From Aquirufa lenticrescens (GTDB taxonomy: Bacteria; Bacteroidota; Bacteroidia; Cytophagales; Spirosomataceae): a stretch of DNA of 64,000 nucleotides. Below, in pieces: positions 47,547 to 54,571 of this stretch. Within the stretch, counting starts at the first letter, position 1; each line of letters opens with the position of its first letter. Where the stretch lies: positions 1,224,501-1,288,500 of the forward strand of contig NZ_CP049834.1 of the NCBI RefSeq assembly GCF_019916085.1. Reading direction: 5' to 3'. A program made the position numbers and the translations under genes. The notes under the pieces are model-generated. The model was not told the DNA's origin and did not search any database. It was given only the letters and a program-made list of their open reading frames with translations.

Positions 47547-49892
47547 ATGTGGCGTTTCCTATCCATTCTTTTGTTGATTTCATTCAACGCTTTTACGCAA
47601 AACAACACCCAAACCATACGTGGTGTTATTACTGACAAACTTTCTCAAACACCCATTCCGGGGGCCAGCATTCAAATTGCATCTTTGCAAAAAGGAGTGG
47701 CAACGGATAGTTTGGGCCAATTTAGTTTGAAAAACATTCCCCCTAATCGCTATGAAATTAAGGTTACTTGCGTGGGATATAAAAACGTTACGCTTCCGAA
47801 TGTGATTGTGATTTCTGGGAAAGAAGTAATCCTAGATATTCAATTAGAAGAGTTGTTTAATCAACTCAGCGAAGTCGTTGTTAAAGCCAGTAACAAAGGC
47901 GGAACGATAAATAAATTAGCGAGTGTTAGCGCTCGAACGTTTTCGATGGAAGAGGTGAATCGTTATGCGGGAGGTCGTTCAGATCCAGCGCGTTTAGCCG
48001 CAAATTTTGCTGGCGTTTCTGCGCCGGACGACAGCCGAAATGATATCGTTATTCGGGGCAATTCTCCGGTGGGTGTTTTGTGGCGAATCGATGGAATGAA
48101 TGTGACTAACCCGAACCATTTTGCCTCCGTGGGTACGACGGGTGGAGCCGTAAGTGCTCTTAATACGAATCTCTTAAAAAATTCGGATTTCTTTACCTCT
48201 GCTTTTCCCGCAGAATATGGGAATGCGACGGCCGGTGTTTTTGATTTAGGCTTCCGTTCTGGGAATAATAAAAAGAGAGAGACCACTTTACAAATGGGCG
48301 TTATAACCGGTTTAGAAGCGACGACAGAAGGGCCATTTTCAAAGAAAAGTGACGCATCTTATGTGGTGGGATATCGCTATTCATTAGCAGGAGTCGCACA
48401 AAAAATGGGCGTTGACATCGGTACCACCGCCTTGCCGTCATACCAAGACTTGTCTTTTAAAGTGGCGAGCGGCAATAGTAAATATGGCAAATTTTCCTTG
48501 TTTGGGATTTTGGCAAACAGTACGATTGAAATCAGTGGAGGGAGTTCTAGTAGCTTATATGGGAACGGAAATCAGGTCGACTTTGCGAGTAAAATAGGAA
48601 TCACAGGCTTGAATCACTTTAAGCAATTGACATCAAAGTCATACATTACCTCGACCTTGGGCGTAAGCTACTCTAGCAATGACCAAACGTCCTATGATTT
48701 TGACCGAAACGACAACCTCGACTTTATTAAAGAGGTAAATAATGTAGCTCGAACGAGCTATAATTTTAGTTCCACTTACCATTCAAAACTAAATGCACGG
48801 ACCTTTATTAAGATGGGAATTCGAAACGAAGTGATTGATCTGTATTTGAATTATAAAACTAAAAATAGGGCTAGAGACACCTATATGCAGCTTTGGGATT
48901 ATAATAGTAGCACGAACCTTGTCCAAGCATTTGCTCACGTTAAATACGATGTTAGCGAAAGATTGACGATGAATGCGGGTTTGAATACCCAATTATTTTC
49001 GTTGAATAATTCTACTTCTGTGGAGCCACGTTTGGGCTTGATTTATGCAACGTCGGATAATAGTAGTTTGAATTTTGGCTACGGATTGAATGCCCAACTG
49101 CAGCCGATCAATGTCTATTTTTTAGCGAGCACAAACCCGAGCGGAAGCAAGAGTTACACAAATCAAGGTTTGGACTTTACGAAAAGTCACCACTTGGTTT
49201 TAGGTTATAATGTTCAACCTTGGAAGGACTGGAGAATTAAGACGGAGGCGTATTACCAGTCTATTTATAATGTTCCGGTTACGTCATATTCTAGCAGTTA
49301 TTCGATGTTGAATACGGGGGCGACATTTAAAGCAGATTTACAGGATAGTTTGGTTAATGAAGGAACGGGCAAGAATTATGGCCTTGAATTAACGGTGGAG
49401 AAGTTTTTCAGCGACGGGTATTATGGCCTATTTACGACCTCCTTGTATGATTCAAAATATGTCGCCAGTGATGGCATTGAACGAAATACAGCCTTTAATG
49501 GCAAGTATATTTTTAATGTATTAGGGGGAAAAGAGTGGACGGTAGGTCGCGTGGGTCGAAATAAGATTTCGATTGATGTAAAATATACGAATGCAGGAGG
49601 GCGGGCTTATACTCCGATAGACCTATTGAAGTCTAAAGCAACCGGTCGAGAACAACTATCTTCTGAGGAGTATTCGAGTTTCTATGAAAATTATTACCGG
49701 GTAGATTTCAAGGTAGGATACACCTTAAATAGCGCGAACAAAAACCGTTCACATACGGTCTCGTTAGATTTGCAAAATGTGACGAATCACAAGAATATTT
49801 TTTCGCAGAATTATGACAATAAAAGCCAAAGCATCAACACGAAATACCAATTAGGCTTCTTCCCTAATGTGGTGTATAAATTGCAGTTTTAA
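47547..49892 (+). CDS. TonB-dependent receptor with CarboxypepD_reg-like domain
   Basis: 781 residues. Signal peptide (FLSILLLISFNAFTQ), N-terminal carboxypeptidase-regulatory-like domain (residues 22-105: IRGVITDKLSQTPIPGASIQ), plug domain (NDIVIRGNSPVGVLWRIDGM, with VFDLGFRSGNN) and a 22-strand barrel ending VVYKLQF. No SusD partner, so a metal or siderophore-like ligand is more likely than a glycan. Preceded by an ECF-type promoter matching those of the sigma gene 1.3 kb downstream, with which it converges (4-bp overlap with the CpxP/CnrX-like gene). Confidence 0.9.
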   Translation: MWRFLSILLLISFNAFTQNNTQTIRGVITDKLSQTPIPGASIQIASLQKGVATDSLGQFSLKNIPPNRYEIKVTCVGYKNVTLPNVIVISGKEVILDIQLEELFNQLSEVVVKASNKGGTINKLASVSARTFSMEEVNRYAGGRSDPARLAANFAGVSAPDDSRNDIVIRGNSPVGVLWRIDGMNVTNPNHFASVGTTGGAVSALNTNLLKNSDFFTSAFPAEYGNATAGVFDLGFRSGNNKKRETTLQMGVITGLEATTEGPFSKKSDASYVVGYRYSLAGVAQKMGVDIGTTALPSYQDLSFKVASGNSKYGKFSLFGILANSTIEISGGSSSSLYGNGNQVDFASKIGITGLNHFKQLTSKSYITSTLGVSYSSNDQTSYDFDRNDNLDFIKEVNNVARTSYNFSSTYHSKLNARTFIKMGIRNEVIDLYLNYKTKNRARDTYMQLWDYNSSTNLVQAFAHVKYDVSERLTMNAGLNTQLFSLNNSTSVEPRLGLIYATSDNSSLNFGYGLNAQLQPINVYFLASTNPSGSKSYTNQGLDFTKSHHLVLGYNVQPWKDWRIKTEAYYQSIYNVPVTSYSSSYSMLNTGATFKADLQDSLVNEGTGKNYGLELTVEKFFSDGYYGLFTTSLYDSKYVASDGIERNTAFNGKYIFNVLGGKEWTVGRVGRNKISIDVKYTNAGGRAYTPIDLLKSKATGREQLSSEEYSSFYENYYRVDFKVGYTLNSANKNRSHTVSLDLQNVTNHKNIFSQNYDNKSQSINTKYQLGFFPNVVYKLQF

Positions 49893-50347
49893 CGACTCGA
49901 CCTAGGTCCCATAAAACCAAAGTTAGAACTCGTTAAAATCTTTTCCACTAAGCGATCAAAGGCCTTAATTTGAGGGCCTTTGCATAGTCCGCGGATATCG
50001 CGAAAGTGGGCATAATTCAAAGAATCTAATTTTCCGTAAGTCGCTGTTAACTGTTGCAGGGCTTGCGGATTTTTATTTTCAAATTGGTAATAGGCTTTTT
50101 TAGCATCGGCAATCTCTTTTCTAATTTGGGCTGATTGGTCTTGGTGATTTTTGACGTAGCCGGCGTAAATCCTCCGCTGCTGTTCATTGAATTGTAGTTC
50201 GTCGGCGATGACATTTTTTAATTGTGGGCCGCCAGGAAAGGGACGATGTTGGAATTCGTTGAAAACAAAAAATCCGAGCGCTAGCACATTAATGAACAGG
50301 CCAATACCAAATACCCAAGTCCACACTTTTTTGCGTTGGTTTACCAT
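49889..50347 (-). CDS. Membrane-anchored CpxP/Spy/CnrX-like periplasmic metal sensor
   Basis: 152 residues. N-terminal anchor helix (VWTWVFGIGLFINVLALGFFV), then a helical periplasmic domain with the family pattern LQFNEQQRRIYAGYV and HFRDIRGLCKGPQIKAFDRLVEKI (parts), matching the periplasmic heavy-metal sensor (CnrX/ZraP/CpxP) group. Histidines in EFQHRP, KNHQDQ and YAHFRDI are candidate ligands. Third gene of the sigma operon, the CnrX position relative to an ECF factor. Confidence 0.8.
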   Translation of the reverse strand: MVNQRKKVWTWVFGIGLFINVLALGFFVFNEFQHRPFPGGPQLKNVIADELQFNEQQRRIYAGYVKNHQDQSAQIRKEIADAKKAYYQFENKNPQALQQLTATYGKLDSLNYAHFRDIRGLCKGPQIKAFDRLVEKILTSSNFGFMGPRSSR

Positions 50348-50351
50348 GATT

Positions 50352-50618
50352 TTAATAGGTTAAATTGTTTGCGGCGTAGGATTTAGCTACGGATTCCAGT
50401 TGAATTTGGGCGATTTCTTGTTGCGTTTGTTTCCCAGCATAAAATAGGGCACCGGAGAAAAATATCGCGACGAAGCTCGCCGCCGCCATCCAGCGCATCG
50501 ACTCGCTTTGCTCTTTTTCTTGCATGGCATCAAACATATGATCTAACACCTCTGTTTGATTTTTCCACTGTAGGCCTTGAAGGACCTGCAATTGTTCGTC
50601 TAATGGGTCTTCTTTCAT
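50352..50618 (-). CDS. Small one-TM protein, probable anti-sigma factor
   Basis: 88 residues: a cytoplasmic N-terminus of about 40 residues, one membrane helix (AAASFVAIFFSGALFYAG) and a 25-residue periplasmic tail. This is the topology of CnrY-type anti-sigma factors. The ATG overlaps the sigma stop by 4 bp. No ZAS-type HxxxCxxC zinc motif is present. Assignment rests on size, topology and position. Confidence 0.65.
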   Translation of the reverse strand: MKEDPLDEQLQVLQGLQWKNQTEVLDHMFDAMQEKEQSESMRWMAAASFVAIFFSGALFYAGKQTQQEIAQIQLESVAKSYAANNLTY

Positions 50619-51157
50619 TTCAATTCTTTTTTAATGTTTTCTTTCGCACGACTGACGAGCGATTCTATAGCTTTGATACTTAAGTTCATCAATTCACTGG
50701 CCTCGGCATACGACATTTCATCTAATTTTATCAGCGTAAAGGCGACGCGTTGGTTTGGATTTAATCGGTCAATGGCGCGGTAAAGTGACAGCGCTTTTTC
50801 TTTATTTTCTAATTGAATATCCGGGTGGAGTTCCGTGGACTCATAGCTTTTAGATTCGTTTGGCATCCACCAGGGCAATAATTCCCGCCACTGCGATCGT
50901 CTTTTTTCTTTTCGTAGCTTTTCTAAAGCCTTGTTTATCGCAATCCGAATAATCCACGTACTCAACGAAGATTGACTCTTAAAAGATTTGATCGACTCAT
51001 AGACTTGAATAAAGGTCTCTTGACACACATCCTCTGCCTCTTCACGGTTTCTCAGAATCTGCATGGCGTGATGGAACACCCGACCTTGGTATTCTTTTAC
51101 CAAAGTCCGGAATGCCACCTCGTCACCCGAAATCAAATCCCTAATTTTCCGATCCAT
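50615..51157 (-). CDS. ECF-type RNA polymerase sigma factor
   Basis: 180 residues. Region 2 (EYQGRVFHHAMQILRNREEAEDVCQETFIQVYESI, in parts; STWIIRIAINKALEKLRKEK) and region 4 (LNPNQRVAFTLIKLDEMSYAEASELMNLSIKAIESLVSRA, in parts) are intact, with no extra C-terminal domain. Read from one arm of a divergent promoter pair (51171-51202), indicating autoregulation. Followed by the anti-sigma-like and CnrX-like genes with overlaps of a few bases. Confidence 0.93.
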   Translation of the reverse strand: MDRKIRDLISGDEVAFRTLVKEYQGRVFHHAMQILRNREEAEDVCQETFIQVYESIKSFKSQSSLSTWIIRIAINKALEKLRKEKRRSQWRELLPWWMPNESKSYESTELHPDIQLENKEKALSLYRAIDRLNPNQRVAFTLIKLDEMSYAEASELMNLSIKAIESLVSRAKENIKKELK

Positions 51158-51170
51158 TCTTCAATCATAC

Positions 51171-51254
51171 CTTAGATGTTTCTGCTTTCCAAATTCTTCG
51201 GTTGAAATAAAAATATTTTTTTACCGAAGGAAATGTAGATGTGGCGCATCTAAG
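51171..51254. promoter_or_regulatory. Mirror-symmetric divergent ECF promoters
   Basis: Plus strand: ACCGAAG (51223-51229), 17 bp, CATCTAAG (51247-51254), toward 51273. Minus strand: ACCGAAG (51202-51196), 17 bp, CATCTAAG (51178-51171), toward the sigma gene at 51157. Elements and spacing are identical on both strands; the 20 bp between the -35 elements is A/T only except for one G. Neither side has a TAnnTTTG box. Confidence 0.85.
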
Positions 51255-51272
51255 AACAAAAAAGCAAACCTC

Positions 51273-52241
51273 ATGTTAAGCAAATCCATTAAAATAATCT
51301 TCAGCTGTTTATTATTAACAGCTTGTTCGCAATCGGAAGATATTAGCCCATCTAATGCTACAGACGTCATTTTAGAGGTTGATCCTACGCTTTTTATCCC
51401 AGCAGGTTTAGTGGGAACTATCACTAAAGTGGAAAAAACACTTTCAAATGGGACTACCACGATGTGCTATAAAATCACCACTTCTAAAACACCTACGGAT
51501 CATGTAATGGGTCCTTGGTGTCCCACTAATGCGTCGGATGATGCTAGTAAAGGTGGGCTTTGGTTTGAAAAAGGCAATATCTATGATGTGGATGGAGCGT
51601 TTGTTAAAAATTTGGCCACTTTTTATAATGATTCAAAATGGAATCTAATAAGAAGCGACGGAACCATTAAAGTGACAAACACGAAAGAAGCTTGCCAGGC
51701 TGCTGCACGTCCTGACGTAGATCCACAATACAATAATTATTGCGTGGAATGTCAACCCACCTATTTCTCTAACATTAAATTAACGTATTATATTCCTGTT
51801 AAACCGATTAAAACGAACGGGACAACAACTTTAGGTGGCGGAGCTCCGGGCGGTATGGTAGGAGTTGCATTTAACGGAATTAATTTTGATCCACCCGCAC
51901 CTACACAGGCTATTTTAGGGGCTTACACCTTAGCTCCAATGGATGACGCAGGCGGTCACGTCAATGGGGCAACGGGTTATCATTACCATGCTGCTACCGG
52001 GAAAAGCAAGAAAGTAGAACAAGTAGATGGACATGCCGCGATGATAGGGTATGCGATGGACGGTTTTGGGTTGTATGAACTGCTGGATAAAACCAATAAA
52101 GAACCGACAGATTTAGACGCTTGTCGCGGACATTATGACACGACCAGAGGTTATCATTATCATGTGGCCAAAGCAGGAAGTAATAGTTTCATCGGCTGTT
52201 TTCATGGCGCGCAAGGAAGCGTTGAAATAACCACTAATTAA
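51273..52241 (+). CDS. YHYH-domain lipoprotein
   Basis: 322 residues with lipobox LLLTAC (Cys18). Two YHYH motifs are visible (GYHYHAATG about residue 233, GYHYHVAKAG about residue 292), diagnostic of the YHYH protein family, with additional His, Cys and Asp residues that could bind metal. Function of the family is unknown. First gene of a four-gene operon driven by the ECF promoter; its stop overlaps the next ATG. Confidence 0.85.
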   Translation: MLSKSIKIIFSCLLLTACSQSEDISPSNATDVILEVDPTLFIPAGLVGTITKVEKTLSNGTTTMCYKITTSKTPTDHVMGPWCPTNASDDASKGGLWFEKGNIYDVDGAFVKNLATFYNDSKWNLIRSDGTIKVTNTKEACQAAARPDVDPQYNNYCVECQPTYFSNIKLTYYIPVKPIKTNGTTTLGGGAPGGMVGVAFNGINFDPPAPTQAILGAYTLAPMDDAGGHVNGATGYHYHAATGKSKKVEQVDGHAAMIGYAMDGFGLYELLDKTNKEPTDLDACRGHYDTTRGYHYHVAKAGSNSFIGCFHGAQGSVEITTN

Positions 52242-53560
52242 TGCGTGGCCTACTAATTTTACTGTTTTTTTTGCCCCTAGGTGTTTTTGGACATAGTTCA
52301 CAAATCTCCACTTTTGCACTTGTTAAAGACTTAAAAGGACAATGGACTGTTCACCTCAGTGCGTCATTAGAGGCTTTTGAAAGTGCGTTAGGAAACAAAA
52401 AATTTAGCTCTGCTGAAGCTTTTCAAAAAGAGCTAATTCAGCAGGTCAAAAGCGACATTAAAATCAAGTCGGGGGTTCTACAATCTGTAAACTTAAACGA
52501 TGGTCAATGTCATTTAGGCCATCAAACGGATTTGAAATTTACATTAAGTGGTTTATCAGCTGAAGCATCTACTATTTCTGTGGAAAATGAGTTCTTTAAA
52601 GAACTGAACAGCCATTTTATGGTATTTAAAGTCATTAATGGAGCCACAGAATCGAATCAATTCGTACTGCAATCTTCGAATCATTTTTCAGCTCAGGTAC
52701 ACATTCAGCCTACGGGTATCATAGTAGATTCTGAGCAGGCGTTTAACTATTATTATCTCCTTTTTATTGCTCCTATTGTATTACTTCTCTTACTTAAATA
52801 TCCCATGAAAAAATCCATAAGCGTAGTTACGTTAGCCACGTTATTTTTCGCCTGTTCTACAGATGATTCTACTGTTACTCCAGCTGCCTCATCAGCCGAA
52901 GTTCCAGCCGTATATAAGAAAATCTATGGCGCATCCAGTGTGACGAGTGATAGGACGACTATTTCCATCAAAGTAAACGGGTTGCCGGATCATAAAAGCC
53001 CTTATTATGCAACGACCAATAGTCTATATCAGTCGTATTCCGGGCTTACTTTTGGAGGATATATTTTTGAAAAAAATCCGAATTCCATTATCGAACAATC
53101 GGCTACTTTCAAAATTCCTGTTAACCCAGTGATGGCAACAAATCATGCAGCAACACCTTTAGGTCCCATCGGTATTGCTTTAAATGGCGTACCATTTTTC
53201 AATCAATATGCCGGCCCGAACAACCAAGAACTAAAGGGAGAAATGGCGGGATTTGATCAGTTTTATGGTCATCCACAAAACTCAGGGGTATACCACTACC
53301 ACGTGGAACCGTTGCATCTAACCACCGTTAAGTCTACTAAATCCGGCCTTCTGGGATTCCTTTTGGACGGATTCCCGGTATATGGACCGCAAGAAGAAAC
53401 GGGTTCTGCGGTGACGAATGCAAATTTAGATGTGTACCATGGACATAGCCATGCCACGGTAGATTATCCCAATGGAATTTACCATTACCATTTTACGTCA
53501 GAAGCTCCTTATTTAAATGGTAATGGTTTTTATGGAACGCCGGGAACTCTTACACAATAA
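52241..53560 (+). CDS. Fused protein: periplasmic domain + TM + YHYH lipoprotein-like domain
   Basis: 439 residues in one frame. Residues 1-17 are a signal peptide (ending VFGH); residues 18-165 a soluble domain with His residues; 168-186 a hydrophobic helix (YYYLLFIAPIVLLLLLKYP). At residue 189 (ATG 52805) a complete lipoprotein signal peptide begins in frame: MKKSISVVTLATLFFAC, followed by a YHYH domain with YHYHVEP and YHYHFTSE. So either a recent fusion or two proteins with an internal start. Coupled to both neighbours by 1-bp overlaps. Confidence 0.8.
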   Translation: MRGLLILLFFLPLGVFGHSSQISTFALVKDLKGQWTVHLSASLEAFESALGNKKFSSAEAFQKELIQQVKSDIKIKSGVLQSVNLNDGQCHLGHQTDLKFTLSGLSAEASTISVENEFFKELNSHFMVFKVINGATESNQFVLQSSNHFSAQVHIQPTGIIVDSEQAFNYYYLLFIAPIVLLLLLKYPMKKSISVVTLATLFFACSTDDSTVTPAASSAEVPAVYKKIYGASSVTSDRTTISIKVNGLPDHKSPYYATTNSLYQSYSGLTFGGYIFEKNPNSIIEQSATFKIPVNPVMATNHAATPLGPIGIALNGVPFFNQYAGPNNQELKGEMAGFDQFYGHPQNSGVYHYHVEPLHLTTVKSTKSGLLGFLLDGFPVYGPQEETGSAVTNANLDVYHGHSHATVDYPNGIYHYHFTSEAPYLNGNGFYGTPGTLTQ

Positions 53561-53967
53561 TGATGAGATACGCTGTACTTCTTCTTTTTTTTTGGAGCTG
53601 TTCTAAATCAGAGCCGAAAACCGTAGTCGAAAAAAAGTATTTCCTATCTGGTCAGATTAGGGAAATTCGATACATCCAAAATGGAGTAAGGCAGGGTATG
53701 CAAACGGCGTTTTGGGAGAATGGCAAGAAGCGTTTTGAATACACTGCGGTTAATGATGCATACGAAGGAGAGCTTAAAGAATGGGCTGAAAATGGACAAC
53801 TTTTTCACTTAGCCCATTACAAAAATGGACAAGAAGACGGGGTCCAAAAGATGTGGCATGCAAACGGCAAAATTCGTTCGAATTTTGTGATCATAAATGG
53901 TCGCCGATACGGTTTATTAGGCACTAAAAACTGCAAGAATCGGGATGAGAAATTATTGGCTTATTAG
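53560..53967 (+). CDS. YwqK/MORN-repeat lipoprotein
   Basis: 135 residues with lipobox FFWSC (Cys14). At least three repeats of the form FLSGQIREIRYIQNGVRQG, FWENGKKRFEYTAVN and WHANGKIRSNFVIINGR, typical of the YwqK-like antitoxin-repeat family, in which repeats form beta-hairpins. Though the family name includes antitoxin, no toxin is beside it; a surface binding role is more likely. Start overlaps the YHYH fusion stop; end overlaps the SCO gene by 23 bp. Confidence 0.8.
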   Translation: MMRYAVLLLFFWSCSKSEPKTVVEKKYFLSGQIREIRYIQNGVRQGMQTAFWENGKKRFEYTAVNDAYEGELKEWAENGQLFHLAHYKNGQEDGVQKMWHANGKIRSNFVIINGRRYGLLGTKNCKNRDEKLLAY

Positions 53968-54571
53968 TATTTTCTTAGTGGCTTGTTCGGAAACCCCTGT
54001 TTCGAAAATTCCTTTTTATAACACCCCTGATTTCAATCCCTATTTTATCAGTGAGGCGGAGGCTAGTTCGAAAATTACGCACCGCATTAAACCTTTTGCC
54101 TTTTATAATCAAGACAGTACATTATTCCGCAGTGAATCACTTCAAGGAAAAGTGTACGTGGCGAACTTCATTTTTACGCGCTGCAGCAATATATGTCCTG
54201 ATATGACTGCTCAAATGAAGCGCATCGAAAAAGCTTTTAAGTCAAATTCAACTGTAGCCCTTGTTTCTTTTACCGTAACGCCTTGGTTCGACGATGTGAA
54301 GACACTGCGTAAATTTGGCGAAAAATTCCAAATCTCCTCATCGAATTGGTCTTTGTTAACGGGCCCCAAAGCATCCATCTACACCCTTGCCCGCCAATCC
54401 TTTTTTGCAGAAGAGTCTATCGGTTATAATAAGGATACAAACGAGTTTTTACACACGGAGCACATCATTTTAGTGGATCAAAAAGGCCGCATTCGCGGGA
54501 TTTATAATGGTACGATTCCCTTTGATGCAGATCAATGCATAGAGGACATGAAATTGCTTTTGCAGGAGTAA
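53945..54571 (+). CDS. SCO1/SenC family copper chaperone lipoprotein
   Basis: 208 residues with lipobox FLVAC (Cys14). Thioredoxin-like fold with the copper-binding CxxxC motif C80-SNI-C84 (FTRCSNICPDM) and the distal histidine in EFLHTEHIILVD (H170 or H173). SCO proteins deliver copper to cytochrome oxidase or handle periplasmic copper and redox stress. Last gene of the ECF-controlled operon. Confidence 0.92.
   Translation: MRNYWLISIFLVACSETPVSKIPFYNTPDFNPYFISEAEASSKITHRIKPFAFYNQDSTLFRSESLQGKVYVANFIFTRCSNICPDMTAQMKRIEKAFKSNSTVALVSFTVTPWFDDVKTLRKFGEKFQISSSNWSLLTGPKASIYTLARQSFFAEESIGYNKDTNEFLHTEHIILVDQKGRIRGIYNGTIPFDADQCIEDMKLLLQE

Follow-up and report, generated by a model that had tools for sequence, protein, structure and literature searches.

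Two ECF-type promoters of one class very probably stand back to back between two divergent operons of Aquirufa lenticrescens, and both would be read by the ECF sigma factor encoded at 50615-51157. We analysed a stretch of 64,000 nucleotides from this organism, which is called the window herein. That this sigma factor drives its own operon and the neighboring YHYH/SCO operon through a shared promoter class was the core of the original prediction, and it is supported by comparative sequence evidence. The relevant features are as follows.

51171-51202, minus strand: predicted promoter arm 1 (sigma operon); -35 ACCGAAG at 51202-51196, 17-bp spacer, -10 CATCTAAG at 51178-51171
51203-51222, no strand: A/T-rich centre of 20 bp, 19/20 A/T, between the two back-to-back -35 elements
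51223-51254, plus strand: predicted promoter arm 2 (YHYH/SCO operon); -35 ACCGAAG at 51223-51229, 17-bp spacer, -10 CATCTAAG at 51247-51254
50615-51157, minus strand: ECF sigma factor, 180 aa; Pfam Sigma70_r2 (PF04542) 1.6e-21 and Sigma70_r4_2 (PF08281) 3.8e-15
50352-50618, minus strand: small anti-sigma candidate, 88 aa, overlapping the ECF stop; named from position and alignment
49889-50347, minus strand: CnrX/Spy-like membrane-anchored periplasmic protein, candidate sensor, 152 aa, helical; named from profile and fold
51273-52241, plus strand: YHYH1, predicted lipoprotein with a YHYH domain; Pfam PF14240 2.8e-12
52241-53560, plus strand: YHYH2, YHYH-domain protein overlapping the YHYH1 stop; Pfam PF14240 8.1e-26
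53560-53967, plus strand: MORN-repeat lipoprotein; Pfam PF07661 1.5e-12
53945-54571, plus strand: SCO1/SenC-family protein; Pfam PF02630 1.6e-24, with CxxxC (CSNIC) in the translation

Both strands carry ACCGAAG, exactly 17 bp and CATCTAAG, as had been predicted. These two sites are the only exact matches in the window and in the whole 2,505,188-base genome, across which the reversed control pattern has no match, and 100 dinucleotide-preserving shuffles of the window yielded none. The spacer letters differ between the arms. With one arm in place, a second exact match of 15 bases would turn up by chance within 100 bp with a probability of about 2e-7. Together with the shuffles and the genome count, this rules out a chance origin of the pair, and the claim that coincidence is negligible holds. 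The A/T-rich centre is also as described, and might act as an UP-like element common to both -35 elements. The sigma-A -7 box of Bacteroidota, TAnnTTTG, had been reported missing on either side, and we likewise found none on either strand of 51100-51330. Arm 1 ends 13 nt before the ATG of the ECF gene and arm 2 ends 18 nt before that of YHYH1, so the leaders would be short. When two mismatches are allowed, the genome holds 23 matches versus 25 for the control, and counts at the control level mean that a wider regulon is not readable from this genome alone.

Comparison within the genus indicates that the two arms are maintained. The sigma factor is present in just 3 of 38 genomes, all three of which have the divergent layout. 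The original prediction regarded orthologous loci lacking both elements as evidence against it; the two sisters that carry the sigma gene, G013 and G028, retain both arms. Both boxes of arm 1 are identical in the three genomes. Arm 2 of the sisters reads TCGAAG and CGTCTAAG, with the 17-bp distance unchanged and different spacer letters. There are indels elsewhere in the sister intergenic region, with arm spacing intact, and the A/T centre is nearly unchanged. Conservation of boxes and distance while the spacer drifts is the mark of selection on a predicted promoter.

Outside the genus, the orthologous ECF factors are mostly 36-49% identical to that of the window. Their usual operon encodes the ECF factor, the anti-sigma and the CnrX-like protein, often followed by YHYH2, MORN and SCO genes on the same strand; such loci occur in Flavobacteriaceae, Chitinophagaceae and others. 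A SCO gene adjoins the sigma operon in many lineages, and in many the genes are united in one operon whose only promoter precedes the ECF gene. From these layouts, we infer that the divergent arrangement in the window arose by splitting of an operon that is single elsewhere.

The same promoter class recurs at these distant loci, where it precedes many of the orthologous ECF genes by 20-70 bp. There, CGCAAGTTT...CATCTAA is common and lies in the register of the CGAAG...CATCTAA of the window. When bipartite words ahead of ECF genes were counted de novo outside the genus of the window, the top word was GCAA-N19-TCTAA, at 11 loci, versus 5-7 for the best words of ten shuffled sets. We scored loci on the 13 positions of CGnAnG and CRTCTAA, with a gap of 15-17 and a cut-off of at least 12. 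By this measure, 34 of 59 orthologous loci carry the motif, either ahead of the ECF gene or within the gap between ECF and anti-sigma genes, and the roughly 40% of loci without a good match are explained in part by uncertain gene starts and lineage variants. Second copies precede YHYH2 in L063, L067 and L070, and distant genes in others; the class is thus found before ECF genes, in the ECF/anti-sigma gap, and before YHYH2 or YHYH1. The predicted promoter core is CGMARG-N16-CRTCTAA, of which ACCGAAG is the variant found with the sigma subclade of the window. A copy sits in the ECF/anti-sigma gap in some groups, among them flavobacteria such as Tamlana, Kordia and Winogradskyella. In the flavobacteria, this position may mean that the anti-sigma and sensor are induced but the sigma gene itself is not part of the regulon. 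Gap promoters were recorded at L153, L155, L157, L158 and L164, the last of which has an additional copy upstream of the ECF gene.

A score of 12 with CGMARG is reached by 43 of 74 CnrX-linked ECF genes versus 2 of 52 other ECF genes, although a few loci are repeated in the first set and the two sets are not matched in taxonomy. When CCGMARN17CRTCTAA was searched over the whole genomes of 149 relatives, the overall count was not above that of the reversed control; the only conspicuous sites are those associated with ECF, YHYH, MauG and CotH genes. As a result, the evidence rests on position beside ECF- and YHYH-type genes rather than on genome-wide excess. One further site, CCGCAAGTTT...CATCTAA in G050, lies about 110 bp upstream of a gene for a 211-aa protein without a Pfam match (L228:3794-4429), which is a possible additional target.

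The motif also tracks the presence of the sigma factor. YHYH1 orthologues (51-95% identity) occur in 11 genomes, of which six encode the sigma factor (E <= 1e-25). All seven YHYH1 genes of the six sigma-bearing genomes carry the motif with a score of 12 or 13 of 13, whereas none of the five YHYH1 genes in the five genomes without sigma does so (best scores 9-10, no better than shuffles); this comparison ignores shared ancestry by counting sisters separately, and by lineage it is about four versus three. Among the genomes without sigma are members of the same genus that have kept YHYH1 but not the motif. In G073, G125 and G057, YHYH1 is far from the sigma gene yet bears the motif, without a mirrored partner, so linkage is not the explanation. 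G057 also has two full-length tandem YHYH1 genes (L042:6927-9153), each with its own promoter copy.

A letter-level connection between this sigma factor and its predicted -35 box lies in the protein itself. The ECF factor has sigma-2 and sigma-4 regions, and by alignment its recognition helix includes IKAIESL, which is of the K-A type. Helices of the form x-S-[VI]-E-S-L pair with the -35 box CGCAAG, with A at position 5 in 17 of 18 loci. The form K-A-[IV]-E-S-L, to which the window belongs, pairs with CGnAG and has G at this position in 7 of 7 loci, as do other x-A helices in 7 of 9; the exceptions to the A/G rule are L064, L072 and L179. The difference between K-A and x-S helices gives a Fisher p of 1.7e-5 with shared ancestry ignored, and because the tree shows a single large clade of K-A helices and a small number of separate switches (L085, L149, L163), independent helix/-35 events are few. 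Even so, the fit between helix and box is good evidence that the sigma factor at 50615-51157 reads the -35 box predicted here.

Other readings of the two arms must be considered. Because the arms mirror each other around the A/T centre, they could be a single palindromic operator for a dimeric regulator (CTTCGGT-N20-ACCGAAG plus outer repeats), with no promoters at all. We consider this extremely unlikely, since the mirror symmetry is not kept at orthologous loci, where single unmirrored copies stand at a set distance from gene starts. Moreover, the outer box looks like the -10 element of an ECF promoter (C[AG]TCTAA), the -35 letters vary together with the sigma factor and not with a repressor, and symmetry beyond the matched words is weak (62% overall). 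It is also conceivable that only the sigma arm functions and that arm 2 remains from an inversion or duplication by which the ancestral operon was divided, given that the genes form one operon with a lone promoter before the ECF gene in many lineages and that this genome has no further site. The core and spacing of the YHYH arm are nonetheless preserved in the sisters as the spacer drifts, and the separate YHYH1 genes of G073, G125 and G057 have the motif with no mirrored partner, which makes a vestigial arm very improbable.

A different objection accepts the promoters as real and assigns them to another ECF factor of the genome, or to several. There are about nine other ECF-like candidates, and ECF regulons overlap in other bacteria, a matter discussed for flavobacteria in PMC9723704. 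An outside reader is unlikely, however, when motif presence follows the sigma subclade of the window, when the -35 letters follow its recognition helix, and when genomes of the genus that lack this factor have YHYH1 with no motif. Divergent promoters read by the adjacent sigma factor remain our strongly preferred reading.

The 88-aa protein encoded next to the sigma factor has one predicted membrane span, judged by eye, no database match of its own, and a profile without any solved (PDB) relative; we infer an anti-sigma role for it. The profile of the CnrX-like sensor family matches NccX (7.5e-7), Spy (5.2e-6) and CnrX (7.9e-6), and 10 of its 16 members have a Metal_resist domain. CnrX chains are the best fold match to the sensor model (pLDDT 81.6), with Z 10.4 and rmsd 2.5 over 97 residues, and because unrelated helical proteins score Z 8-9, the sequence match outweighs the fold match. 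In a profile alignment, the CnrX ligands H42, H46, E63 and M123 have no counterpart in the sensor family, and H119 alone does, in the invariant H114; the family also has its own near-invariant C122. A TonB-dependent receptor gene at 47547-49892 converges on the sigma operon, and TonB receptors also adjoin the orthologous ECF genes of L069, L071, L072, L078 and L085.

On the opposite strand, the ends of the YHYH1, YHYH2, MORN and SCO genes overlap. The structure prediction for YHYH1 has a mean pLDDT of 35.8. Within YHYH2, a membrane segment is followed, near residue 188, by a lipoprotein-like signal, YPMKKSISVVTLATLFFACSTDDS, and the protein looks like an upstream membrane protein fused to the YHYH2 lipoprotein; it is of equal length in G028 (L033). 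Our literature search found no paper on the YHYH family, and one for YHYH-linked sigma factors, made largely without subscription journals, also found none.

These observations suggest a circuit. At rest, the sigma factor would be kept at the membrane by the small anti-sigma together with the CnrX-like periplasmic protein. Its release would follow an envelope signal, for which an excess or mishandling of copper or a related metal is the likeliest candidate. Arm 1 would then drive the genes for the sigma factor, anti-sigma and sensor in positive autoregulation, and arm 2 would drive YHYH1-YHYH2-MORN-SCO, whose products might deal with the metal or restore envelope proteins that depend on metals.

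We lean slightly toward copper over general envelope stress as the signal. SCO proteins are a copper-chaperone family, and their genes adjoin the sigma operon in many lineages. Genes for MbnP and MauG-type di-haem proteins occur in sister operons of the ECF family (L150, L174), and a MauG gene elsewhere (L230) carries the promoter. The conservation of His114 and Cys122 in the sensor likewise argues for a metal. The same circuit could instead respond to general envelope or protein-folding stress, which is a plausible if less favored alternative: the sensor resembles Spy as well, the missing CnrX ligands weaken the case for metal sensing, and LTXXQ and PepSY-like proteins are among the targets elsewhere. 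Further promoter-bearing or linked genes of relatives encode LTXXQ, PepSY-like, CotH and sulfatase proteins, and the CotH, PepSY-like and sulfatase genes do not point to copper. In L150 (5616-7408) and L174 (8396-10116), which are from Bacteroidota MAGs, the MbnP/MauG genes lie directly downstream of the ECF, anti-sigma and CnrX-like genes; genes in L176 and L178 match them by size and order alone.

The closest known relative of this arrangement is CnrYXH, which consists of the sigma factor CnrH, the anti-sigma CnrY and the metal sensor CnrX. In Cupriavidus metallidurans, this sigma factor acts on the promoter of its own operon and on that of a target operon (cnrYp/cnrCp; PMC9045368), as is predicted here. 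In both systems, the gene for the ECF factor is accompanied by genes for a small partner anchored in the membrane and for a periplasmic protein of the CnrX fold. In the window, however, the sigma gene comes first, the promoters are back to back, and the adjacent target is YHYH1-YHYH2-MORN-SCO rather than an RND efflux operon. Because four of the five CnrX metal ligands and the RND target are missing, and because the anti-sigma candidate, with no PDB profile match, is not recognizably CnrY, we do not class the system as CnrYXH. It is better described as an envelope sigma circuit that resembles CnrYXH and probably responds to copper or some other metal.

Other systems share some of these features. 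In Escherichia coli, RpoE is a positively autoregulated ECF factor, and the CpxP/Spy envelope stress response involves Spy-like periplasmic proteins. The present system is similar in its predicted autoregulation and in the Spy-like periplasmic proteins of relatives' regulons, but we saw no RseA-like anti-sigma and no DegS or RseP neighbors, and a CnrY-sized partner is found instead. Methanobactin loci of Methylosinus have a FecI/FecR-type sigma pair and a TonB receptor, and MbnP/MbnH pairs have been linked to copper loci, with a function then unclear (PMC3621798). Operons of this ECF family similarly contain MbnP with a MauG-like di-haem protein, although in the window this pair is absent and SCO/YHYH genes take its place. 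Finally, the SM6 motif is another non-sigma-A promoter class of Bacteroidota, and its CGT in the -10 region is compatible with CRTCTAA; unlike the class described here, it is tied to type IX secretion genes, and the available text does not connect it with a CnrX-like sensor or with SCO/YHYH genes (PMC9723704).

Promoter maps for the ECF factors of Bacteroidota are poor, because for most of these factors neither signals nor targets are known. Here, a promoter could be assigned to its sigma factor from sequence alone, with a letter-level tie between recognition helix and DNA through which the evolution of -35 specificity can be tested directly. Copper-type envelope handling is also a first lead to a function for the unstudied YHYH family. 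It is also tempting to speculate, as a tentative proposal with a little less than an even chance, that a CnrX-linked ECF family in several Bacteroidota classes runs a copper-handling envelope regulon (SCO, YHYH, MbnP/MauG) in which the sigma-4 helix and the -35 box have changed together. If so, the family would provide a natural series of sigma/promoter pairs with differing specificity (S-[VI]-E-S-L with CGCAAG, K-A-[IV]-E-S-L with CGnAG).
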